A stretch of 64,000 bases of DNA, from the NCBI GenBank assembly GCA_022841825.1, contig JALHQT010000003.1:558001-622000 (forward strand), given 5' to 3'. The notes beneath the pieces are model-generated. The model searched no databases, was not told where the DNA came from, and saw nothing but the letters and a program-made list of their open reading frames with translations. This document shows, in pieces, positions 17,695-31,094 of the stretch; position 1 is the first letter of the stretch, and each line of letters opens with the position of its first letter. This stretch comes from Anaerolineae bacterium (GTDB taxonomy: Bacteria; Chloroflexota; Anaerolineae; Aggregatilineales; Phototrophicaceae). A program made the translations under genes and the position numbers.

Positions 17695-18150
17695 CTGTGG
17701 GGGATACTTTAGCCACCTGCGCTGGATTCGCCTCGAAACAAAGCTACAATCCGCAGTCGCATGTGATATCCAATCCCCAATGAGAACAATCGCTGATGCG
17801 TCAATCCCTGCGCCAAGCGCTCCGTCAAGGATTCGTTTTTATCCTTCAGCGCGTTGAACAACGCTTGAAACACTGGACACAGCCCAAGAACGTGGGTCTC
17901 TTGCTGGGAGCAGTCATCGACATGTCTCGCAGCAAATCAGAGTTAGTCGCTGAGAATGCCTTCTTGCGCCAACAGCTGATTGTTCTGCGGCGTCAAACGA
18001 AACGCCCGGCATTGACTTCATCGGATAGGCTGGATCTAGATGTTGCCGACTTCTATTCGTGCTCCGAAAGCCAATACAATGTACGAACGCTTTCTGGGAA
18101 GCGTACAACGGGAATGATTAGATCATGTGGTGGCGTTCAACGAATGATAT
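17695..18150 (+). mobile_element. Decayed insertion sequence with rve-type transposase
   Basis: 17695-17710 (CTGTGGGGGATACTTT) matches the terminal repeats of the IS at 28164-29176. From 17796 a frame encodes a transposase N-terminus including SKSELVAENAFLRQQLIVLRR, which matches the intact start at 28276. After about residue 75 the core is deleted, and the frame resumes near 18060 with PKANTMYERFLGSVQRE, a stop codon, and LDHVVAFNE: the end of the catalytic core. It is therefore a dead copy with a large internal deletion and a nonsense mutation. No right terminal repeat is clear. Confidence 0.7.
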
Positions 18151-18154
18151 GATC

Positions 18155-18224: not shown

Positions 18225-18438
18225 AATAGCTGCTTGGATAGGATTTCTTGTCATTGCAGGTCAACCGTGAATTGTCAACGATTTGCGTGGGTAGTACTGG
18301 ACCCTAAAGAACGTTGTACAATCCGAGTGACATCGCGTGCCAGGACAGCCCTTGGAACACGGTAGCTTTCATGCACGCGAGTCCACTAAGACCGGCTCTC
18401 CAGTCCGGCTCGGTAAGCGAATTTGCCTTTCGACATGG

Positions 18439-19725
18439 CATATGCCACAATCGATTGACCTTATGAATACTTGCTTTTTGTTGATGAGACAAGACGATTC
18501 TGGAATTGCAATACGTGGATTGAACGCATTCCTGACGCAGTTTGATCGGAAATGCCTTGTCGTCATTGCACAAGACCTCGCGCACTGGCCCGTAGGCGAG
18601 GTGGCTGCGGGCGCAAATGCCGCCGCGCTCTCCGGTGGGTATCGCCTGATCTCCCTCGATTTTCATCGTTCCCCTGACCGTGAACGCGACCTGTTGCAGG
18701 TCTTGTGCAATTCGCAGGTCAGCGGGTGCATTTTTCTGTGGGATAACGCGCCCCACAACCTTGATCTTTATCAGGAGCTCGCCACGAATTTTCCGTGTGT
18801 TCAGGTGATCGATCCCAAGCCGATTCCGCAGCTTGATACGGTCATGTGCGATGACTATACGGGCGGGATGGCAGCCGTGCGCCATTTGATTCTGCTCGGA
18901 TTCCGGCAGATTGGGCATGTGACGGTCGATACGCCGATGCAGGCTGTCCGGGATCGGCACCAGGCGTATGTCGATGCAATGCGTTTAGCCAACCTGCCGC
19001 TTGACGAGCATTGGGTACTGGAACTGCCCTATGGCGTGACTGAAGCTGACCGCGTCCTGCGTGCACCCATCATCCGTGAGTTCCTCTCACAGTCGCGTCT
19101 ACCGAGGGCACTGTTTGTCTGTGCCGATTGGTTAGCGAGCGAAATTATCGAATGCACCCAGGAACTCGGCTTGGGCATCCCGCACGACATTGCCCTGGTC
19201 GGTTATGACGATGCTCTGCCCTATGCCCTGACGGGAATTCCGCTCACGACAGTGCAGAACGACTTTCGGGAAATGGGACGCCTGGCGGTCGAGCGTATCA
19301 CCTTTCGCCTGACGAACCACCTCAGCGATGTCGAACCGTGCATCATTCGCATCACACCAACGCTGGTGATCCGGGCGTCATCCGTGCCGCTGTCGCCAGC
19401 AACCCAGCGTTGGGAAGTCATCATGCGGTATATTCAGGACCATTTCCGCGAAAACATTACCGCTGCCCAAACAGCGGATGTCTATGGGCTGGACTCGAAT
19501 TACTTTTCGCACCAGTTCAAACTGGTTTTTGGCGTTCGCTTCACCGACGCTGTGAATAAGTTACGGTTGGAATATTCAAAACAGCTGCTCAAAACGACAG
19601 GCTACACAGTCGAAGCCGTCGCCGACGCCGCTGGCTTCCGCACCCCGAATCACTTTTATGCCCTGTTCAAGCGCGCCTATGGCATGACGCCGCATGCTTA
19701 CCGCAAGCAGCACACTTTTCGATAG
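18439..19725 (+). CDS. XylR-like regulator: sugar-binding domain fused to AraC-type HTH
   Basis: The N-terminal two-thirds is a LacI/periplasmic-binding-protein sensor fold (CLVVIAQDLAHW, then CDDYTGGMAAVRHLILLGFRQIGHV, and DIALVGYDDALPYALTGIPLTTV). The last 100 residues are an AraC/XylS pair of helix-turn-helices (GLDSNYFSHQFKLVFGVRF and the second HTH ending YGMTPHAYRKQ). This architecture is that of E. coli XylR. No LacI-type N-terminal HTH is present. The start is uncertain: ATG at 18439 or 18463, or GTG at 18337, none with a good ribosome-binding site. It most likely binds a sugar imported by the downstream ABC system and activates that operon. Confidence 0.85.
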   Translation, partial: HMPQSIDLMNTCFLLMRQDDSGIAIRGLNAFLTQFDRKCLVVIAQDLAHWPVGEVAAGANAAALSGGYRLISLDFHRSPDRERDLLQVLCNSQVSGCIFLWDNAPHNLDLYQELATNFPCVQVIDPKPIPQLDTVMCDDYTGGMAAVRHLILLGFRQIGHVTVDTPMQAVRDRHQAYVDAMRLANLPLDEHWVLELPYGVTEADRVLRAPIIREFLSQSRLPRALFVCADWLASEIIECTQELGLGIPHDIALVGYDDALPYALTGIPLTTVQNDFREMGRLAVERITFRLTNHLSDVEPCIIRITPTLVIRASSVPLSPATQRWEVIMRYIQDHFRENITAAQTADVYGLDSNYFSHQFKLVFGVRFTDAVNKLRLEYSKQLLKTTGYTVEAVADAAGFRTPNHFYALFKRAYGMTPHAYRKQHTFR

Positions 19726-19845: not shown

Positions 19846-20916
19846 GTGCTGCGCCCTGTGAAATCAGTTTTTGGGGATAGTTATTCGAAGCTATTGCCGA
19901 GCCAATTTATGGACAGTCCAATTAGAGTCGCGTCGATTACTTTCAAAAACTGGGCGGCGCTTGCGCTCGAAAACGATTTTGTCAGGATCGTGGTGATTCC
20001 TGAGATTGGCGGCAAAGTCGTTTCGATAGAGTCCCTTTCGAACCACCGGGAATTCTTGTGGCAGGATGACACACGCCCCTATCGTCATCCCCGGTATGGC
20101 GATGTGTTTGGCAATTACGATGCCAGCGGCTTCGACGAGTGTTTTCCCAGCATCGGCGAATGTGACTACCCCGAATTTCCCTGGGATGGCGTGCGTGTCC
20201 CCGATCATGGCGAGATGTGGTGTACGCCGTGGCGGGCTGAACCCGACGACAAGAGCGTTCATCTGGATGCACATGGCGTGCGTTTTCCCTATCACTTCGA
20301 AAAGTCGCTCACCCTGGCGGCTAACGCGCCGCGCTGCACCATCACCTATCGGGTGACCAATCCGGCACCGTTCGACTTCAAGTATTGCTGGTCGGCGCAT
20401 CCTTTGTTCGCGGCGTCCGAAGGAATGTGCATTTTGCTACCAGATCACCCCGATGCGCGGCTGGTGTTTGCGCTCGGTAACCGTGTTGCCGGCGATCTAC
20501 AGGAGACCTATCGCTGGCCGTGGCTGCGCACGCCAGCCGGTGAAATGCTCGATTACAGTCGGATAGGTTCGCCTGCGCTGGCAGCCAATGACAAAGTCTA
20601 TGTTGATGTGGGGGATGAGGGTTGGTGTGCGCTCTATGACCCGACGACCGGAGATTTTGTCGGCTTCCGCTTTGCGCCGGAGTTGATCCCCTATCTCGGC
20701 ATTTGCGTCAACCACGGTGCATATCCTTTTGAGGGCGCAAAGGGTTTTTGGGTCGCGCTGGAACCGTGTACCGGCTATCCCGACGCACTCAGCGACGTCA
20801 TCGCGCTCCAGAAACACGCCACCGTGAAAAGTCGCAGCAGTGTGTCGTGGTCACTGGCGCTGCACGTTGGACAGGCAGATTCAGTTGCTGAGGTACGGCG
20901 TCAATTGCTGGCTTGA
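19846..20916 (+). CDS. Aldose-1-epimerase-fold protein (galactose-mutarotase-like)
   Basis: A 356-residue protein with the galactose-mutarotase-like beta-sandwich: LALENDFVRIVVIPEIGGKVVSIES at the start is the typical opening ('tnd.l.v.vlPe.GGkv.si'), followed by DECFPSIG, and YCWSAHPLFAA with a His in the core strand. Such proteins interconvert sugar anomers or bind sugars; some are annotated DUF5107 or DUF4432. GTG at 19846 is chosen, with GAGGA 7 nt upstream; ATG at 19909 is the alternative. It precedes the ABC importer, so it probably supplies the right anomer of the imported sugar. Confidence 0.75.
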   Translation: MLRPVKSVFGDSYSKLLPSQFMDSPIRVASITFKNWAALALENDFVRIVVIPEIGGKVVSIESLSNHREFLWQDDTRPYRHPRYGDVFGNYDASGFDECFPSIGECDYPEFPWDGVRVPDHGEMWCTPWRAEPDDKSVHLDAHGVRFPYHFEKSLTLAANAPRCTITYRVTNPAPFDFKYCWSAHPLFAASEGMCILLPDHPDARLVFALGNRVAGDLQETYRWPWLRTPAGEMLDYSRIGSPALAANDKVYVDVGDEGWCALYDPTTGDFVGFRFAPELIPYLGICVNHGAYPFEGAKGFWVALEPCTGYPDALSDVIALQKHATVKSRSSVSWSLALHVGQADSVAEVRRQLLA

Positions 20917-20978
20917 GCGCCAAGTTGACATCGAGTGCTTACAAAAGACCGACTCCTAGCGAAGAGGAGATGAATGTA

Positions 20979-21986
20979 ATGGCTGTGGCCGCAACAAAAT
21001 CCGAGAACAGACCGCGGCTGGGCACACGCACCACAGCGGTTTTTCGGCGTCTGTTCAGTGTCCCCGAAGTGGGCGTGCTGATTCCGCTGATTGCATTTGC
21101 CCTCATCTTCTACCTGGTCAACCCGACGTTTCTTTCGCCAGCCAACATCACCACGATGCTGAGGGCGGTGGCATACATCGGTATCATCGCCATCGGGATG
21201 ACGTTCCTGCTGATCACTGGCGCATTCGACCTGTCCGTTGGCGCGACAGCGGGCTTGTGCGCCATCGTGTGCAGCTATGCTATGGTCAATCTGAGTTGGC
21301 CAATTCCGCTCGCTGTGCTGGCAGGGGTGCTCACTGGCGCGCTGGTAGGGTTGGTCAACGGCTTTGTCGTCCTCAAGCTGGGCGTTCCGGCGTTTATCAC
21401 GACGCTGGGCATGCTGAACATTGCTAAGGGCATCACTTACCTCATCTCCAAAGGCTACACCATCTACCCTCTTCCCGAACCGGTTGGCGTTTTTGGGGAG
21501 GCAGAGCCGTTCGGCACGTCGTGGGCGGTCGTGATCTTTGTACTCATGGCAATCGCCGCGGCATTCGTGGCGACCCGCACTTCGTATGGGCGTAAGCTAT
21601 ACGTCGTGGGCGGCAACCCAGAAGTCGCCCGCCTCGCGGGGATTAACCCCGCGCGCATCCAGCTATCCGGATTCGTGCTGGTCAGCGTGTGCGCCGGGAT
21701 TGCCGGGATGTTGCTGATGTCGCGCATAGCGACCGGGCAGCCAACGATTGGTCTCGGTTGGGAACTGAACGTGATCGCGGGGGTCGTCATCGGAGGCGTC
21801 AGTCTGTTTGGCGGTTCAGGGTCGGTCGTTGGAGCCGTTATCGGGTTGCTCATTATGCAGGTCGTCACGAGCGGTCTGGTCATCAGCAATGTTGATCCTT
21901 ACTGGCAGACGGTGGCGATTGGGCTGATCATGATCGTCGCAGTCGCAATCGACATCCTCCGGCGAAAATCGAAATCGGCTGCTTAG
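20979..21986 (+). CDS. Ribose-type ABC transporter permease (RbsC-like)
   Basis: A 335-residue membrane protein of the branched BPD_transp_2 family, with about 8-10 hydrophobic segments. GAFDLSVGATAGLCAI and GRKLYVVGGNPEVARLAGINP, with GGVSLFGGSGSVVGAVIGLLI, are hallmarks of RbsC/XylH permeases. The ATG at 20979 has GAGGAG 8 nt upstream; earlier in-frame starts at 20913 and 20970 are less well supported. Together with the duplicated binding protein and the RbsA-type ATPase it makes a complete CUT2 importer for a monosaccharide. Confidence 0.93.
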   Translation: MAVAATKSENRPRLGTRTTAVFRRLFSVPEVGVLIPLIAFALIFYLVNPTFLSPANITTMLRAVAYIGIIAIGMTFLLITGAFDLSVGATAGLCAIVCSYAMVNLSWPIPLAVLAGVLTGALVGLVNGFVVLKLGVPAFITTLGMLNIAKGITYLISKGYTIYPLPEPVGVFGEAEPFGTSWAVVIFVLMAIAAAFVATRTSYGRKLYVVGGNPEVARLAGINPARIQLSGFVLVSVCAGIAGMLLMSRIATGQPTIGLGWELNVIAGVVIGGVSLFGGSGSVVGAVIGLLIMQVVTSGLVISNVDPYWQTVAIGLIMIVAVAIDILRRKSKSAA

Positions 21987-22203: not shown

Positions 22204-24069
22204 ATGCGTTTCCAAAAGACCGGCTTTAAGTTCATCAGTTTGTTGCTTGCTGTGCTGCTGCTCGTCACCGCGAGCAGTATGCTGGTAAGTGCCCAGGATG
22301 CGCCGCGCATCGCGCTGATCCAATTCCTCAAGGGACATCCGGTGCATCGGTTGATGCAGTTGGGTTTCCAGGAGGGCTGCGAAGCTGCAGGTGCGCAGTG
22401 TGACATGCTGCTGACGGACAGCACCAACCCGGTAGACATGGTGCCGCTGGCAGAGCAAGCCCTGGCGCAGGGTTACGACGGCGTCGTGCTCTACGCCGTG
22501 GATGCCAGCTTTTTCCCCGTCATTCAGCAGTTCCGCGATGCTGGCATCCCCGTGGTCACGCCACACTTCACGAGTTTCGACCAGGAAGAGTCTGGGTTGA
22601 CGGCAGTAGTGGGTGCGGATGTCGTAGCCTATGCCCAGGCGGCAGCAGAGGCGATGGGCGAACGGCTCGGCGGGGTGGGGACGGTGGCGGTGACGGTCGG
22701 CAGTTTCAACCAGACCGAGAATCTGGTGGCTGAGACGTTCACGGCGACCCTCAATGAGCAGTACCCGGACATCACTGTGCTCGAACCGCAGGAGGAAGGG
22801 TTCGACCAGGCGCAGGCGATCGCGAAAGCGGTGGCGATCCTGCAGGGGAACCCCGAGGTGACAGGTGCGTTCTCGACGACGGGAAATGGACCAACGACCT
22901 GGGCGCGCGCGGCAGAGGAAGCAGACCGCGACGGTATCAGCATCATCAGCATGGACTACACCCGCCCCAACCTGGACTTGGTGCGCGATGGCAAGGTCTA
23001 CGCGCTGGTGGGGCAGCCGCTGTACGAGGAATTCTACAACTCGGTCGAACTGCTGGTGAGTGCGATCAACGGGGATGAGGTCGAATATCTCAACCTACTG
23101 CCCGCACCCATCATCACCGCCGCTGATCTTGATGCCTACTATGGCTTCAACGACCGCGCCGAAGCAGGTATCGCGGGCGAAGCTGTGACGCCGCGCATCG
23201 CCTTGATCCAATTCCTTAAGGGACATCCAGTGCATCGGTTGATGCAGTTGGGTTTCCAGGAGGGCTGCGAAGCTGCAGGTGCGCAGTGTGACATGCTGCT
23301 GACGGACAGCACCAACCCAGTAGATATGGTGCCGCTGGCAGAGCAAGCCCTGGCGCAGGGTTACGACGGCGTCGTGCTCTACGCCGTGGACGCCAGCTTT
23401 TTCCCCGTCATTCAGCAGTTCCGCGATGCTGGCATCCCCGTGGTCACGCCACACTTCACGAGTTTCGACCAGGAAGAGTCTGGGTTGACGGCAGTAGTGG
23501 GTGCGGATGTCGTAGCCTATGCCCAGGCGGCAGCAGAGGCGATGGGCGAACGGCTCGGCGGGGTGGGGACGGTGGCGGTGACGGTCGGCAGTTTCAACCA
23601 GACCGAGAATCTGGTGGCTGAGACGTTCACGGCGACCCTCAATGAGCAGTACCCGGACATCACTGTGCTCGAACCGCAGGAGGAAGGGTTCGACCAGGCG
23701 CAGGCGATCGCGAAAGCGGTGGCGATCCTGCAGGGGAACCCCGAGGTGACAGGTGCGTTCTCGACGACGGGAAATGGACCAACGACCTGGGCGCGCGCGG
23801 CAGAGGAAGCAGACCGCGACGGTATCAGCATCATCAGCATGGACTACACCCGCCCCAACCTGGACTTGGTGCGCGATGGCAAGGTCTACGCGCTGGTGGG
23901 GCAGCCGCTGTACGAGGAATTCTACAACTCGGTCGAACTGCTGGTGAGTGCGATCAACGGGGATGAGGTCGAATATCTCAACCTACTGCCCGCACCCATC
24001 ATCACCGCCGCTGATCTTGATGCCTACTATGGCTTCAACGACCGCGCCGAAGCAGCGATCCAGAATTAG
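22204..24069 (+). CDS. Ribose-type substrate-binding protein with two tandem, near-identical domains
   Basis: A 621-residue exported protein: a signal peptide (about residues 1-31, ending SAQ) and then two periplasmic-binding domains of 296 and 292 residues. Each begins PRIALIQFLKGHPVHRLMQ and ends YYGFNDRAEA. Usual RbsB-like proteins have one such domain and are about 300-350 residues. At protein level the two domains look identical except at their junction and C-terminal ends; at DNA level they are an 888-bp tandem duplication with only seven silent differences. The frame runs through without a stop. GGGAGAA precedes the ATG. It lies between the permease and the ATPase gene. Function: binding a monosaccharide for import, with two binding sites per chain. 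Confidence 0.88.
   Translation: MRFQKTGFKFISLLLAVLLLVTASSMLVSAQDAPRIALIQFLKGHPVHRLMQLGFQEGCEAAGAQCDMLLTDSTNPVDMVPLAEQALAQGYDGVVLYAVDASFFPVIQQFRDAGIPVVTPHFTSFDQEESGLTAVVGADVVAYAQAAAEAMGERLGGVGTVAVTVGSFNQTENLVAETFTATLNEQYPDITVLEPQEEGFDQAQAIAKAVAILQGNPEVTGAFSTTGNGPTTWARAAEEADRDGISIISMDYTRPNLDLVRDGKVYALVGQPLYEEFYNSVELLVSAINGDEVEYLNLLPAPIITAADLDAYYGFNDRAEAGIAGEAVTPRIALIQFLKGHPVHRLMQLGFQEGCEAAGAQCDMLLTDSTNPVDMVPLAEQALAQGYDGVVLYAVDASFFPVIQQFRDAGIPVVTPHFTSFDQEESGLTAVVGADVVAYAQAAAEAMGERLGGVGTVAVTVGSFNQTENLVAETFTATLNEQYPDITVLEPQEEGFDQAQAIAKAVAILQGNPEVTGAFSTTGNGPTTWARAAEEADRDGISIISMDYTRPNLDLVRDGKVYALVGQPLYEEFYNSVELLVSAINGDEVEYLNLLPAPIITAADLDAYYGFNDRAEAAIQN
22303..24055 (+). repeat. 888-bp in-frame tandem duplication
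   Basis: Copy 1 starts at 22303 and copy 2 at 23191, offset exactly 888 bp. Silent differences occur at 22314, 22315, 22329, 22341, 22431, 22437 and 22503 (copy 1 numbering). From 22504 to about 23167 the copies are base-for-base identical by eye. Confidence 0.92.
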
Positions 24070-24088: not shown

Positions 24089-24149
24089 TGACGGGGGTTC
24101 TCCTGGGGGCGTGGTATGCCGCGCCCCTACCGACCGGGAGACCCCGTCA
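24089..24149 (+). repeat. Large intercistronic stem-loop containing a GTAGGG-type palindrome
   Basis: TGACGGGG (24089-24096) pairs with CCCCGTCA (24142-24149), extended inward by further pairs with small bulges. Inside it, 24105-24130 read on the minus strand begins GTAGGGGCG and is a member of the palindrome family at 5141 and 63722. It lies between the binding-protein and ATPase genes and could limit transcription downstream of the former. Confidence 0.6.
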
Positions 24150-24179
24150 GGCTCAAAGGTTGCCCTGAAGGAAATACTG

Positions 24180-25742
24180 ATGACACATTTGCTTGAGATG
24201 GCAGACATCACCAAGCGCTTTCCCGGCATTGTTGCCCTCAATGATGTCAGTTTTGCAGTTCAGGCGGGCACGATTCACGGGCTGGTGGGCGAAAATGGGG
24301 CGGGGAAATCGACCCTGATGAAGATTCTTTCGGGCACATACCCCGCCGGGACGTACGAAGGCGCAATCCGCCTGCACGGAAAGACACTCCATTTGCACAC
24401 CGCGGCAGATGCGCTGGAGCAAGGCATCGGCATCGTGCCCCAGGAAACGAGTGTGATCGACCAGTTGACGGTCGCCGAAAACGTGGTTGTCGGCAAATGG
24501 CTTCAGCCTGGCGGCTTGCTGGTCAGCCAGTCGGCTATTCGACACACCGTCAGAAACTTTCTGGAAGAATACGATATCACGCTCGACCCTGCTATCTCGG
24601 TCAGCCGACTCACGACTGCGCAGAAGCAGTTGGTAATGATCGCACGCGCACTGTATCGAAAGCCGAGCGTTTTGATTTTGGATGAACCCACTTCTTCACT
24701 GGCTATAGACGAAATCGAGCGTTTATTTGCCAGTCTGAATGTGCTGCGCCAGAAAGGCGTCACCACCGTTTTTATCACCCACAAGTTGACGGAGATTTTT
24801 GAACTGACCGATCGCACAACCGTGCTGCGCGATGGCGAGGTGGCAGGAGAGTTCGACCGCAGCGAATATGACCAGGCGCTTATCATCGCGGCGATGGTCG
24901 GGCGACGAATCGAAAATCTCTACCCGACCCGCCATTCGCCCATCGGCGCAGACGAAGTGCTGCGCGTGGCACACCTCACCGTGCCACATCCGACAATCGC
25001 GAATCGCAACATTGTCGAGGACGTGAGTTTTTCGCTGAGACGTGGCGAGATTCTCGGTTTGGCGGGTTTGGTTGGCTCTGGGCGCAGCGAAACTGTCAAC
25101 GCAATCATTGGGCGCACCGCTTATTCGGGCACGATCAGCGTTTTCGGTCAGTCCGTCTCTATTAGGAGTCCGGCAGATGCCAAGCGCGCCGGGATTGCGC
25201 TGGTCACAGAGGATCGAAAACGTGACGGGTTTCTTCCCAACCTGGAAATTCGCCCGAACACGACGCTCCATAGCCTGCCACAGGTAACCCGGCGAGGCTT
25301 GATGGATGTGTCGGCTGAACGCCGCCTCGCAACTGAAGCGGTTGCCCGTTTCAACATCAAGGCGCAGTCGATCGAGCAGATGGTTGTGAGTCTGAGTGGC
25401 GGCAACCAGCAAAAAGTCATCCTGGCAAAAGTCCTGATGGACAACCCACAGATCCTGTTTCTGGACGAGCCGACCAAAGGGATCGATATTGGGGCAAAGA
25501 ATGAGATTTATAAGCTGATGCTCGACCTGGTGGCGCAGGGTATTTCGATCATCATGATTTCGTCCGAACTGCCCGAACTGCTGGCGATGTGTGATCGTTT
25601 CGTCGTCCTTGCCGAGGGTAAGGTGGCTGACGAGTTTTTGCGGTTGGATGCAGACGAACATCGGGTTATGCTGGCGGCGACAAGAGCGCGGTCGCAGATC
25701 ACACAGGCGGCACACGCGAGCGCATCGGAGTTGACAGCATAG
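24180..25742 (+). CDS. Ribose-type ABC transporter ATPase (RbsA-like, two nucleotide-binding domains)
   Basis: A 520-residue double ATPase of the CUT2 class. Domain 1 has Walker A GENGAGKST, a degenerate signature (LTTAQKQLV) and Walker B LILDEPTSSL. Domain 2 has the usual shortened Walker A (LVGSGRSE), a good signature LSGGNQQKV and Walker B LFLDEPTKGIDIGAK. The ATG at 24180 has AAGGA 7 nt upstream; an upstream GTG-started extension is rejected. It powers the permease and binding protein encoded just before. The fused pair distinguishes this system from the three other importers in the window, which lack an ATPase gene. Confidence 0.94.
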   Translation: MTHLLEMADITKRFPGIVALNDVSFAVQAGTIHGLVGENGAGKSTLMKILSGTYPAGTYEGAIRLHGKTLHLHTAADALEQGIGIVPQETSVIDQLTVAENVVVGKWLQPGGLLVSQSAIRHTVRNFLEEYDITLDPAISVSRLTTAQKQLVMIARALYRKPSVLILDEPTSSLAIDEIERLFASLNVLRQKGVTTVFITHKLTEIFELTDRTTVLRDGEVAGEFDRSEYDQALIIAAMVGRRIENLYPTRHSPIGADEVLRVAHLTVPHPTIANRNIVEDVSFSLRRGEILGLAGLVGSGRSETVNAIIGRTAYSGTISVFGQSVSIRSPADAKRAGIALVTEDRKRDGFLPNLEIRPNTTLHSLPQVTRRGLMDVSAERRLATEAVARFNIKAQSIEQMVVSLSGGNQQKVILAKVLMDNPQILFLDEPTKGIDIGAKNEIYKLMLDLVAQGISIIMISSELPELLAMCDRFVVLAEGKVADEFLRLDADEHRVMLAATRARSQITQAAHASASELTA

Positions 25743-25762: not shown

Positions 25763-26599
25763 GTGAACAACAGATACAGCCTTGAAGGGAAACTGATTCT
25801 GGTGACCGGCGCGGGAACGGGAATCGGGCAGGGTATCGCGCTTGAAGCGGCACGACTGGGCGCGGATGTCGTGCTGAGCTATGCGCACAGCGCTCAGGGT
25901 GCACAAGAAGCGGCGGAAGAAATTCGTGGGATGGGACGCCGAGCGTTGGCGATCGGCGCCGACCTGAGCAAGGTTGCCGAATGCATTCGCCTGGTTGATG
26001 AAGCGGCTGCCTTTCTCGGCGGGCTGGACGGGCTGGTCAACAATGCGGGGCTGACACTGACGATGGGTTTCCTCGATGTGACCGAAGAACATTTCAACCG
26101 GATATATAACTTGAACATTCGCGGTGAATTCTTTTGCTCGCAGCAGGCGGTGCGTTATATGGTACAGCGTGGTCAAGCCCTGTGCGCGCAGTTTCCGGAC
26201 AATCCCTGGGCTGGGGGCAGCATCGTCAATGTATCGTCGGTGCATGGTTTCGTGGGCTGCGCGGGGCATTCAGTCTACGCGGGCACAAAAGGGGCAATCA
26301 ATGCATTCACCCGCGAACTGGCAATCGAATTGTGCCCGCTGCACATCCGCGCGAATGTGCTTGCTCCCGGTTCAATCGAGGTCGAAAGCTATTTCAAGTC
26401 CATCCCGGAATACAATCGCGCGTTCGGCGATAGTCTGGTGCCGTGGGGACGTATCGGGCTGCCAAGCGACTGCGGCCATATAGCGGCATTCATGTTGTCG
26501 GATGCCGCCGAGTTCATGACCGGGCATGTCCTGTATTTCGATGGCGGTCTGACTGCGAAGATGGCACTGCCTTTTCAGCCGAGCGACAGCGAACGTTGA
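25763..26599 (+). CDS. SDR-family NAD(P)-dependent sugar dehydrogenase
   Basis: A 278-residue short-chain dehydrogenase. Cofactor motif [15 protein letters not shown], the NNAG motif in [10 protein letters not shown], the catalytic Ser in VNVSSVHG and YAGTK carrying the Tyr and Lys, with the PGS following; all are intact. GTG start at 25763 is 20 bp after the ATPase stop, so it belongs to the same operon. It probably oxidises the imported sugar (glucose-1-dehydrogenase or arabinose/xylose dehydrogenase type) in the cytoplasm; the substrate is not determined. Confidence 0.87.
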
Positions 26600-26619
26600 A
26601 GCATTGTGAAGGGAAAACT

Positions 26620-27585
26620 ATGACGCGGCGCGCCAAGGTCTTTGTAAGTCGCATTATTCCCGAAGCCGGTCTCGGTAGAGTGCGTGCAGCATGTGATGTC
26701 GATGTATGGCAGGATGCACTGCCGCCACCCTACGACGTACTCAAGTCGAGGGTTTTTGGAGTCGAAGGCATCTTATCGACTCTAAACGATCAAATTGACG
26801 ACGAACTTATGGATGCCGCTGGGGACTCACTAAAAGTTATCAGTCAAATGTCGGTTGGTGTCGACAACATTGACGTGGTTGCAGCCCATCGGCGAGGGAT
26901 TAAAGTAGGAAACACACCTGGCGTTCTTACAGACGCAACCGCCGACATCGCGATGGCGCTTTTGCTGGCGGCGGCGCGACGCATCGTCGAGGGTGTCGAA
27001 TACATTCAGTCGGGGCACTGGCGCACTTGGGAACCGATGGGGTTGCTCGGCGGTGACCTGTCTGGTGCCACACTTGGTCTCATTGGACTAGGAAGGATCG
27101 GACGCGCTGTTGCACGCCGCGCCCGCGGGTTTGAGATGCGACTTGTGGCACACAGCCCAAGTTGCCCAGCGGAGGAAGCGGCTGCACTTGGTGTTACATT
27201 GGTTTCGTTAGAACAGGTACTCCGCGAAGCTGACTACTTGTCAATACATGTGCCGCTTAAGCCTGATACCCGCCACATGATTGACAGAGATCGGCTCGCA
27301 CTTATGAAGAAAAGTGCGATCTTGATCAACACCGCCCGCGGCGCCATTGTTGATCAAATGGCACTATACGACGCTGTCAAAAATCGAGACATCGGCGGCG
27401 CAGCGCTGGATGTAACAGATCCCGAGCCGATTCCACTGAACGATCCACTTCTTACCCTGCCAAATGTCATTGTCGTTCCACATATTGGCAGCGCCAGCCA
27501 TCGCACGCGCGACAAAATGGCAGCTATGGCAGCCGAGAATTTACTTGCCGGTCTCGCAGGTCATAGCCTTCCGAACGAGGTCTAG
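26620..27585 (+). CDS. D-2-hydroxyacid dehydrogenase (glyoxylate/hydroxypyruvate reductase-like)
   Basis: A 321-residue enzyme with all catalytic marks of the family: [15 protein letters not shown] (NAD motif), [10 protein letters not shown] (catalytic Arg region), DVTDPEPIP (Glu) and VPHIGSAS (His). It reduces 2-keto acids such as glyoxylate or hydroxypyruvate, a plausible end of an oxidative sugar route that begins with the SDR upstream. The ATG at 26620 has AAGGGAAA upstream. Base use looks different from the neighbours: many more A- and T-ending codons, which hints at separate acquisition. Confidence 0.88.
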
Positions 27586-28163: not shown

Positions 28164-29176
28164 GCTGTGCCGGCTACTTCGCTCATCCGGCATGATTCCT
28201 GGCACACATCAGGTATAATCTTCGTCTGAAACGCCCTCTGAATTCCTCCGAAACGCAACAATAAGGACAATTCCAATGAACTGGCGTCAGCTTTGGACCG
28301 CCGGCAAACGCTTGGTCGCGCGCGGACTTCTTCAGGTCGAAACCAAGCTGAAAGAATGGAGCAAACCAGCACCGGATCGCCAAGTGACAGGTATAGTCAC
28401 CGACTTGTTACGCACCAAGCAAGAGCTGATTGCAGAAAATGCGTTTCTGCGCCAGCAGGTGATTGTGTTGAAGCGTCAGAGCCCGGAACGTCCAGCGATC
28501 ACCCAGCGGGATCGCCGCATACTGGTGGTGTTGGCGAGCCAGCTGCGCGGCTGGAAGGACGCATTGCACTTGCTGAAATGGCACCAGCGATGAGATCTGG
28601 TTCTGCGACTTTGTGCAGACCTATGACTTGTTCTTCGGCGCGATTTTTGTCTTCTTTGTGGTGGAGCTGGGATCACGCCGCGTGGCGCATTTCGGGGTCA
28701 CACGCTCACCGAGTGATGCGTGGATAGTCCCAGCAGCTTCGCGAAGCCACGCCGTTTGGTGAAGGACCGCGTTTTCTCATCCGCGACAATGATGGCAAGT
28801 ATGGCGACCGCTTCGAACGTGTGGCAGCCGGAACCGGCATCGAGGTGATCCAGACACCGTTTGGAGTGCCCAAAGCGAATGCAGTGTGCGAGCGCTTCAT
28901 TGGCAGCGTCAGGCGAGAACTGCTGGATCACATCGTGATCGTGAGTGAACGCCATCTGCGACGCAAGGTCGCCGCGTACGTTCGTTACTTCAATCACGCG
29001 CGTCCGCATCAGGGCATCAACGGTCAAGTCCCGATCCCTGCCAGTGCACCGCCCTCGATCATCCCGCCGCTATCTCAACTCAGGCGTATCCCGATTCTCG
29101 GTGGTTTGCACCATGACTACCAATGGGCTGCCTGAGCGGAGAATCTGGCTCGGATGGCCTAAGTAGCCGGCACAGC
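28164..29176 (+). mobile_element. Insertion sequence with inverted repeats, about 1 kb, inactive
   Basis: Left end 28164-28189 and right end 29151-29176 share GCTGTGCCGGCTACTT as a 16-bp perfect inverted repeat, then match again at CATCCG. Between them lies one broken rve-type transposase gene. No target-site duplication is obvious. Its terminal sequence resembles those at 17695 and 29227, so several related elements have visited this region. Confidence 0.82.
28276..29135 (+). pseudogene. rve/DDE-type transposase, frameshifted with internal deletion
   Basis: The N-terminus includes TKQELIAENAFLRQQVIVLKRQ and runs to KDALHLLKWHQ near 28588. Here about 80-100 residues are missing, and the frame changes to DEIWFCDFVQTYDLFF at 28590 (first catalytic Asp). 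One extra base near 28729 shifts the frame again before QQLREATPFGEGPRFLIRDN (second Asp). The final part GVPKANAVCERFIGSVRREL contains the catalytic Glu and ends at 29135. All three catalytic residues remain but no single frame encodes them. Confidence 0.82.
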
Positions 29177-29256: not shown

Positions 29257-29892
29257 CTACGCGCCGATCAGTTCCCGCACTTTGCGCACGGCGCTGGTCG
29301 CATCTGCCGCGTAGCCATCCGCGCCGATCTTGTCTGCGTACTCCTGGGTGACGGGTGCGCCGCCGATGACGATGCGGATCTGATCGCGCAGTCCAGCCTG
29401 CTGGATGGCGTCAATCACACTCTTCATGGCGGGCATCGTCGTCGTCAGCAGGGCGGAAAGTGCGATGACCTGCGCGCCGTTGCGGATGGCATCGACGAAC
29501 TTTTCCGGCGGGACATCAATACCGAGATCCATAATTTCGAAACCGAAGCCTTCCAGCATCATCGATACCAGCTTCTTGCCAATGTCATGCAGGTCGCCTT
29601 TGACGGTGCCGATGGCGACTTTGGCGATCGGCTGGACGCCTTCGGCAGTCAGGTACGGCTTGAGCACCACCAGGGCTTTATCCATCGCGCGGGCGGCGAT
29701 CAGCATTTCCGGGACGAAGGCGATCCCTTCCTCGAAGAGTTCGCCGATGCGCTTCATCCCGCTGATCAAGCCCTGGTTGAGGATGGTATCTGCGGATTCG
29801 CCAGCTTCAAGCGCCTGCTTGACTTTTTCGACCACCACATTCGCCTGACCCTCGATCACTGCTTCTCGGATTTCTTCAATCAGGGACATCAT
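29257..29892 (-). CDS. Corrinoid (B12)-binding methyl-carrier protein
   Basis: A 211-residue two-domain corrinoid protein like MtaC/MtbC or the B12 module of MetH. Residues 1-85 form the helical cap; the Rossmann-like B12 domain follows, with GTVKGDLHDIGKKLV giving the D-x-H-x-x-G motif (His102 as lower cobalt ligand), then SALLTTTM and IGGAPVT. It carries a methyl group on cobalamin between two methyltransferases. Three URO-D-family proteins at 38.5-42 kb are candidate methyltransferase partners. GAGGAAAA precedes the ATG. No B12 riboswitch was recognised upstream. Confidence 0.88.
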   Translation of the reverse strand: MMSLIEEIREAVIEGQANVVVEKVKQALEAGESADTILNQGLISGMKRIGELFEEGIAFVPEMLIAARAMDKALVVLKPYLTAEGVQPIAKVAIGTVKGDLHDIGKKLVSMMLEGFGFEIMDLGIDVPPEKFVDAIRNGAQVIALSALLTTTMPAMKSVIDAIQQAGLRDQIRIVIGGAPVTQEYADKIGADGYAADATSAVRKVRELIGA

Positions 29893-29933: not shown

Positions 29934-31076
29934 TCAAAGCGCGAATGACCCGACCGTCGCATCCTGCGTCTGGAGTGCCTGGCAGGATTGGCGGACGATG
30001 AGCGTCGGCGCGAGTATGATCTGGTCAAAGCGCTCTCGCTTGCCATTAATGCGACGCAGCAGAAGTTCCGCAGCCACCTCGCCGATCTCATGAAAGGGCT
30101 GCGCCATTGTCGTCAGCGGCGGATCGAGATGGGCGGAGACGTCCAGATCATCGAAGCCCACCACAGAGAGATGATCGGGAATGGATATTCCCAGGCTCGC
30201 CGCCGCCCGGTAAAGCGCGATGGCGATCTGGTCATTGGCGGCGAAGACAGCCGTGGGGCGGTCGGTGCCGGTGATGAATTCGTGGAGCTGCGTATGGTCG
30301 ATCAGCGGGTATCCGCCTTCGACCCGGCAGACCAACCGTTCATCCAGCATCATGCCGCGTTCCGTCAGCGCCTGGCAGTAGCCCAGATAGCGGTGCTCCA
30401 TGCTGATCGAGGGCGAAAGCCAGGTCACGAAGCCGACACGTCTGTGCCCCAGATTGAAGAGCGCGTGCGTGGCGCGAATGGCACCGCCGAAATGATCGGT
30501 CATGACGTAGTCGGTCGAGATCGTGCGCAGATAACGGTCGATCAGCACAATTGGAAAGCGGGCGTTATTCAACTCTTCGATCAGCGCGATATGTTCGGAA
30601 TTGATGGGATAGAGCGCGAAGCCCGCGACGTTTTCGTCGATCAACTTGAGGATGACGCGCTCCTGCTGTTGCAGATCATTGTTGACGTGATTGAAGATGA
30701 CCGAGTAATTCGCCTGTTCAGCCACCTGTTGAAAGCCGACCAGGATCGCAGGCACGGAAGAATCGCGCACGTAGGGCACGATGAATGCCAGTCGCTGCGA
30801 ACGATTGCTTGTGGCGCTGTACTCGCTCCACTGAACGAATGTGCCACGTCCTTGCTCGCGGCTCAGGTAGCCTTCGGCTTCCAGAGTAGCCAGCGCCTGG
30901 CGCACCGTGCCGCGCGCGACATCGAATTCCGCGCAGAGGACTTTTTCCGGGGGAATGTTGCTGCCGTTGCGCCAGTCGCCGTTGTGGATGCGCTTCTTGA
31001 GAATTGCGGCGACCTGGATATGCAGATGGGGTGCGTCGGGGCTGCGGTCGAGCATGACAGGCATAGAAGTCCACAT
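29934..31076 (-). CDS. GntR-type HTH regulator with LacI-like sugar-binding domain (AraR type)
   Basis: About 380 residues. The first 70 form a GntR winged helix ([22 protein letters not shown] and then [17 protein letters not shown]). The rest is a LacI/GalR-type effector domain ([69 protein letters not shown]). This is the AraR layout: a repressor released by a sugar. The ATG at 31076 is preferred; a TTG at 31082 is possible. A perfect palindrome AGGTCTAGACCT lies just upstream over the predicted start of transcription, suggesting autorepression. Similar boxes precede neighbouring operons. Confidence 0.88.
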
Positions 31077-31094
31077 GTACAATGCAACTCAAAA

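Follow-up and report, generated by a model that had tools for sequence, protein, structure and literature searches.

A sugar-binding protein with two near-identical domains in a candidate Chloroflexota importer and the recurrence of such doubled proteins in the order

The doubled gene and its neighbours

The window, the whole stretch of 64,000 nucleotides of Anaerolineae DNA that was analysed, contains on its plus strand a coding sequence (22204..24069) for a substrate-binding protein (SBP) of 621 amino acid residues with two Peripla_BP_4 stretches (PF13407, E 4.5e-80). The N-terminus (22204..22293, plus strand) has a putative export signal that ends near SAQD and lacks a lipobox cysteine, as judged by eye from the translation and by a pattern check. 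Direct comparison at an offset of 888 placed repeat unit 1, the first sugar-binding domain, at 22301..23167 and unit 2, the second domain, at 23189..24055 (867 bp each, plus strand). Between them lies a 21-bp linker (23168..23188, plus strand), which is outside both units and occurs at a single place in the window. The sequence-only reading had described an 888-bp duplication. The tandem repeat was correct, but 888 is the spacing of the units (867 + 21) and their length is 867 bp. Each unit is a complete Peripla_BP_4 domain, so the chain has two full binding domains, as had been proposed.

The two units are identical at 860 of 867 bp. The seven differences are at 22314, 22315, 22329, 22341, 22431, 22437 and 22503; all of them are synonymous, and over the shared unit both halves of the protein have the same amino acid sequence. 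The earlier observation of seven silent differences within the first 200 bp or so was borne out by the exact comparison. All seven fall within the first 203 bp of the unit, and the last 664 bp (22504..23167 in unit 1 and 23392..24055 in unit 2, both on the plus strand) are without any difference and presumed to be a homogenised tract. Random placement would put all seven differences in the first 203 bp with a probability of about 4e-5, or 1.6e-4 when the two adjacent bases are counted as one event. When the codons were shuffled and the longest identical run was scored, the window pair gave p=0.001.

The doubled SBP is encoded in a row of genes on the plus strand. The row begins with a regulator that combines a Peripla_BP_3 sensor with an AraC-type DNA-binding domain (18337..19725), followed by a DUF5107 protein (19846..20916) and, directly upstream of the SBP, a BPD_transp_2 permease (20913..21986; PF02653, E 4.2e-47). 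This was the only permease-like gene found beside the SBP, in agreement with the sequence-only reading, which had placed a sugar-binding protein next to one permease. Downstream of the SBP lies an ATPase with two ABC domains (24111..25742; PF00005 in two stretches, E 5.5e-56), which is probably translated from the ATG near 24180. It is followed by a short-chain dehydrogenase (25763..26599) and a D-isomer-specific 2-hydroxyacid dehydrogenase (26443..27585), which probably starts further to the right. By its predicted domains, the combination of a Peripla_BP_4 SBP, a BPD_transp_2 permease and a double-ABC ATPase matches the arrangement of CUT2 monosaccharide importers. None of the NCBIfam equivalog models matched by the importer (arabinose, xylose, allose and others) reached its cut-off; the best for the permease was AraH (230 bits, cut-off 378) and the best for the ATPase a xylose ATPase model (571 bits, cut-off 699). 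The SBP and the permease are separate open reading frames (ORFs), and a fusion of binding and transmembrane domains of the GlnPQ type is absent.

One domain (22294-23166) was modelled with two relatives as alignment and gave a mean pLDDT of 91.2. In a structure comparison the model matched GanP, AraP and other sugar-binding proteins. The full chain of 621 residues, modelled without an alignment, reached a mean pLDDT of 41.7 and was not used. Scans of the window for RNA families (Rfam at gathering thresholds) gave no match, for promoters 3 sites against 5.3 in shuffled sequences, and for terminators 13 against 9.8 (sd 3.1).

At the flanks, the segment 28821-29135 matches rve_3 (Pfam), and the segments 17796-18152 and 28276-28593 are alike by eye and had no Pfam match. 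From these sequences, the importer row seems to be bracketed by transposase remnants. Further on, a B12-binding protein (29257-29892) adjoins a regulator on the minus strand (29934-31082) with a GntR DNA-binding domain and a Peripla_BP_3 sensor.

Doubled binding proteins in other genomes

The nearest full-length relative of the window protein (L022) is 75% identical, has one domain and keeps the order permease, SBP, ATPase. A further relative (L023, 48% identical) and the proteins of G071, G075, G146 and G147 (39-41% identical) are also single-domain. In a domain tree the window pair was nested among these single-domain proteins, and its doubling is therefore separate from those of other subfamilies. 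Since the nearest full-length relative is single, the doubling looks fairly young. When 97 other genomes of the family were searched, matches at E<=1e-30 were found in three and in none of 14 congeners. Together with the transposase remnants at the flanks, this suggests that the row has moved horizontally. In one of the three genomes (G034), the gene is cut by the end of contig L024 at SBP residue 95, and up to this end the two proteins are 86% identical over 64 residues. L024 covers six of the seven difference sites; it agrees with copy 1 at four of them, has a third base at the other two and nowhere agrees with copy 2, so that at those four sites the changed bases are probably those of copy 2. 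Whether the contig end marks a collapsed repeat was considered and dropped; the ATPase contig of the same genome ends within the ATPase gene and not in a repeat, and the break in the SBP gene may therefore be a mere coverage gap.

Fetched loci were then analysed with profiles, and an ORF was counted as doubled when it contained two SBP domains of >=150 residues. This gave 33 doubled rows, two from the window gene and 31 from proteins of other genomes. Within these chains the halves were 76-99.7% identical (30 of the 31, L069 left out); in many of the 31 they were clearly below 97% and had linkers of their own. In the source genome, 35 Pfam Peripla_BP_4 matches fell into 29 ORFs, six of which were doubled. 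Among the matches listed, a hand count gave 30 genomes with doubled Peripla_BP_4 genes out of 154 in the order, the source genome included; the 30 comprise G026, with halves only 29% alike, and G075, where the second unit is cut. Another search added five genomes with such a gene (G012, G018, G020, G039 and G041). A doubled SBP_bac_3 protein was matched over nearly its full length in at least 60 of the 154 genomes by hand count, including G041 with an in-frame stop in the match. All 32 SBP_bac_3 genes fetched from matched genomes were two-domain, and in the source genome six SBP_bac_3 matches fell into five ORFs, one of them doubled. Of 45 loci with a doubled SBP, 43 have a permease-like and an ATPase-like gene next to it, and the remaining two are located at contig ends. 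In some of these loci, such as L051, L071, L072 and L073, there are two permease-like genes.

The source genome was also scanned for repeats in 81 pieces that cover 1.664 Mb including the window, 20 of which (L115-L134) had been picked for their Peripla_BP_4 content. The scan accepted in-frame two-copy repeats with a unit of >=600 bp and a nucleotide identity of >=84%. Seven genes passed, by Pfam six Peripla_BP_4 and one SBP_bac_3. The latter (L106) has units that are 97.4% identical and came from a piece taken regardless of content. Other long repeats had multiple copies of shorter units (CUB, SdrD_B/GEVED, CARDB/DUF11) or were below 84%. A further family served for comparison: no two of the 35 SBP_bac_1 matches in the source genome fell into the same ORF, against 6 doubled of 29 for Peripla_BP_4 (Fisher p=0.006). 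The doubling of Peripla_BP_4 and SBP_bac_3 proteins is thus recurrent in the order and not a one-off. An isolated oddity would not agree with six doubled Peripla_BP_4 genes in the same genome and their recurrence in the order. The domain number in relatives, which the earlier reading had named as a check, was single in the nearest full-length relative, and doubled versions are recurrent in the order.

Three single loci were of interest in themselves. About 2 kb past the window end, on the minus strand, L115:3978-5885 encodes a doubled Peripla_BP_4 protein with units that are 93.6% identical and with its own permease and ATPase. In G111, the ORF at L062:4835-7033 runs through two SBP units into a third that is cut at the contig end; the protein is triple or else the assembly has a loop there. 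In G026, the chain encoded at L069:4889-6754 has two SBP domains with just 29% identity between the halves and by its sequence is a possible two-ligand protein.

Such diverged halves, together with the presence of tandem binding domains on one importer, are what a two-specificity importer like GlnPQ would show, where the domains serve different ligands; besides G026, several SBP_bac_3 chains have halves that are only 61-74% identical. The halves of the window protein, however, do not differ in a single amino acid over the shared unit, and different ligands are therefore not expected there. For the window protein we regard the chance of two specificities as close to nil.

The diverged halves also bear on the possibility of an assembly artefact, in which one gene was assembled twice or two strains were stitched together. 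A near-identical repeat in an assembly with an estimated contamination of 2.36% would fit such an error, and the third unit in G111 stops exactly at a contig end. Against it stand the unique 21-bp linker and the seven differences, the position of the gene inside a 659-kb contig, and the occurrence of doubled genes in numerous other assemblies, where the identity of the halves goes down to 76% (L069 not counted) and is lower in the SBP_bac_3 chains just named. The coding sequence was found once in the 5.9-Mb assembly. As a general explanation an artefact was rejected on the diverged halves and the separate linkers in other genomes. The sequence-only reading had judged it less likely, and with 31 two-domain proteins in other genomes and 32 doubled SBP_bac_3 genes we consider it extremely improbable.

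Short-read assemblies may break or collapse doubled genes, and the architecture may therefore be under-counted. Doubled SBP_bac_3 matches started <=6 bases from a contig end in G065:C35, G004:C8, G069:C82, G104:C36 and G105:C31, which is expected if short reads fail to resolve near-identical units.

We also considered that the doubling serves retention at the cell surface, as a larger unanchored exported protein would be lost less easily. Of 40 doubled proteins whose N-terminus could be read, 38 had no lipobox pattern, and the flags of the other two were doubtful by eye. Of 47 single-domain rows, however, 41 lacked the pattern as well; about 13 of these were judged by eye to be regulators, and some 28 exported-looking proteins without the pattern remain. 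The lack of an anchor is therefore not tied to doubling. A link between lipid anchor and doubling was rejected on this ground, and retention is in our view a very unlikely cause.

Outside the order, 400 genomes across the phylum were searched with three candidates scored per genome. Full-length two-domain matches (E<=1e-70) were found in G000, G529 and G477, which is a lower bound. The survey under-counts, since only three candidates were scored per genome and since the doubled protein of G391 was missed in it and found in the survey of contiguous genomes. In the latter, 13 of 73 ORFs were doubled in seven genomes of the order and 2 of 59 in eight others, where the PF13407 counts take in regulators with a binding-protein domain. 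Without G000 and G477 the numbers were 13 of 73 and 1 of 53 (Fisher p=0.004), with nine of the 13 from G122. These genomes were chosen for contiguity and not blindly, as four of the seven from the order (G012, G039, G054 and G122) and also G477 were already known to have doubled genes. The plasmid collection, our sole view of other phyla, gave three weak partial hits, none covering 80% of the query. The doubled architecture is present outside the order and seems to be rarer there.

Likeness of the two halves

To compare the halves of each chain, a domain tree, a run test and a silent-site profile were used. L089, L091 and L092, with 160 first-half residues equal to those of a kept row, were left out of all three; L076, with its second unit cut, was left out of the pair counts and L069 of the silent-site profile. 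The source-genome pairs L115-L119 stand outside all three sets, and comparisons between species used one genome per species.

In the domain tree 19 of 36 chains had their two halves as sisters, and one further chain was unresolved. In group f3f8 the halves were 96.1-99.6% identical within chains and 79-81% between the families f3 and f8. In group PLPP the halves of one chain were closer to each other than halves of different species in four of five chains, the exception being L068. Among the SBP_bac_3 proteins, the halves were nearer to each other than to any other half in 15 of 32 chains. In the source genome they are 98.3% identical, against 66.5% for the best other half, and the junction peptide is nearly the same as in the congener G013.

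In the run test, 20 of 36 Peripla_BP_4 pairs had a longest identical run above that of the shuffles (p<=0.005). The course of synonymous divergence along the repeat, another check named by the sequence-only reading, was then followed. Of 34 pairs, 28 had a higher density of silent differences at the unit ends than in the middle and 6 a lower one, with a density ratio of 1.59. In 102 same-position comparisons between species the ratio was flat (1.02), and weaker constraint at the ends therefore does not explain the excess. Ragged domain edges and close relatives were also rejected as its cause, since the effect survived trimming and thinning. With 8 codons trimmed from the edges the ratio was 1.55 (1.04 between species; 28 versus 5 pairs), with 15 codons 1.67 (1.08 between species; 25 versus 6 pairs), and with one chain per close cluster the ends were above the middle in 20 versus 5 (p=0.004). 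Tree, runs and silent-site profiles together suggest that gene conversion or an equivalent recombination, as proposed from the window gene, does play a part in some lineages.

In genus g17, 13 SBP_bac_3 chains that are putative orthologs had the half types in the orders AB (5), BA (3), BB (4) and AA (1), a mixture that also points to recombination between halves. In L186 (G114), and by overlapping match rows in G100, G096 and G115, a further SBP_bac_3 gene adjoins the doubled one, and the BA and BB chains may have arisen from it.

Other results pointed the other way. In 16 of the 36 chains the halves were not sisters, and N halves grouped with N halves in L071/L072, L011/L053, L007/L008 and most of the g17 Peripla_BP_4 proteins (six of seven chains). 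L068 was closer to L064 than its own halves were to each other. In 17 of 32 SBP_bac_3 chains one half was at least as close to another gene as to its partner, 16 of 36 pairs missed p<=0.005 in the run test, and the end effect in SBP_bac_3 was slight (20 versus 11 pairs, ratio 1.16 versus 1.01). Sister halves could partly be independent recent duplications. The higher likeness of halves within a chain than of same-position halves was observed for the class and not for every lineage; among the sequences compared, the window gene had no doubled ortholog. For this gene, a young duplication with little later change may account for much of the identity, because L022 (75%) is single-domain. Judged from these sequences, homogenisation is frequent and not universal.

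The same data were weighed for an unselected recent tandem duplication, in which unequal crossing-over made a double that is no better than the single and is to be lost, with no conversion involved. The single-domain nearest full-length relative and the near-identity of the units favour it, and so does the single-domain L012 (G039), which nests within a doubled clade beside L005_C and indicates that halves are also lost. It does not account for the restriction of the window differences to the first 203 bp or for a silent-divergence profile unlike that between species. Doubled genes of two unrelated families in about 30 and about 60 of the 154 genomes (among the matches listed), the doubling kept across congeners in g17 and the absence of any doubling among the 35 SBP_bac_1 matches of the same genome also argue against it. 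We hold this explanation to be unlikely. The sequence-only reading had offered recent duplication or gene conversion as alternatives; both fit and the choice is not exclusive, as the single-domain L022 points to a young doubling and the pattern of identity to conversion.

Proposed working and known systems

Taken together, our results make it probable that the window gene encodes a genuine double-headed SBP of a CUT2-type sugar importer, with units homogenised by recombination and an architecture that has arisen repeatedly in the order. A one-domain protein would have been duplicated in tandem and in frame, so that a single exported chain offers two equivalent sugar sites to an importer with one permease gene and one gene for a double ATPase. 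Recombination between the units, whether by gene conversion or by unequal exchange, would then keep the coding sequence of the halves near-identical, most strongly in the interior. In the Peripla_BP_4 and SBP_bac_3 proteins of the order, the same architecture would have arisen repeatedly and been homogenised in many lineages. Both domains may bind the same sugar and dock in turn, so that one chain delivers two loaded sites, and linkage of the domains may bring more loaded sites close to the permease, as in GlnPQ. With no permease fusion and no visible lipid anchor, the delivery protein is likely to be free.

A wider hypothesis would see a systemic design in this Chloroflexota order, in which the SBPs of importers with two-fold symmetric (homodimeric) permeases are repeatedly doubled and those of the SBP_bac_1 type are not. 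The halves would be kept identical for equal docking by selection and intragenic recombination, and the free bivalent carrier would be a third layout beside the lipid-anchored and the permease-fused ones. The permeases of SBP_bac_1 importers are usually asymmetric heterodimers. The hypothesis rests on the SBP_bac_1 contrast in one genome, and the doubled loci with two permease-like genes do not help it. We put it forward tentatively, as an idea with some chance of being right and a greater one of being wrong.

How many binding sites are useful per importer, and whether linked domains cooperate, is a question studied in GlnPQ and OpuA, whose binding domains are fused to the permease. Here, related one- and two-domain SBPs exist that are unfused to a permease and often have identical domains, and valency could be tested alone. 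The set of intragenic repeats also allows recombination between large domains to be followed across species.

Two ligand sites per chain beside one permease had been thought an unusual design, but more than one ligand site per importer is already known from GlnPQ and OpuA. In GlnPQ, each of the tandem binding domains retains its structure and affinity, and they are largely independent (PMC8025302). The window protein resembles GlnPQ in having two complete domains with a short linker on one importer, the linker being 14 residues in GlnP (PMC8025302) and 7-8 here. It differs in that the GlnP domains are fused to the permease and have differing specificity, whereas here a separate exported chain has identical halves of the Peripla_BP_4 type. 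In OpuA, the two identical domains are reported to be cooperative in transport (PMC11065425). Common to both is that at least two identical binding domains lie near a single translocator; for OpuA, cooperativity of delivery was proposed (PMC11065425). There, however, the binding domains are joined to the transmembrane domains of two subunits, and here two are in one free chain.

The one-domain CUT2 proteins GanP (6gq0, 6gt9), AraP (6sw4) and the ribose-binding proteins (2ioy, 1dbp) have the same fold and family and differ in having one domain per chain instead of two. Of 161 PDB sequence matches, the 60 chains listed were all <=354 residues long. Among the open-licence literature matches listed, titles and starts of abstracts named no free, homotypic, doubled binding proteins or their concerted evolution. 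Long-lasting concerted evolution of duplicated prokaryotic genes has been described for 26 genes (PMC6053082), and in the available part of its main text the terms 'ABC transporter' and 'binding protein' are absent. In that study, as here, copies in the same genome are closer than orthologous copies elsewhere and gene conversion is invoked; the copies there are separate paralogous genes, whereas here they are the halves of one chain. In conclusion, tandem binding domains in an importer are already known, and the present case differs from those systems in its probably free, homotypic doubled form.
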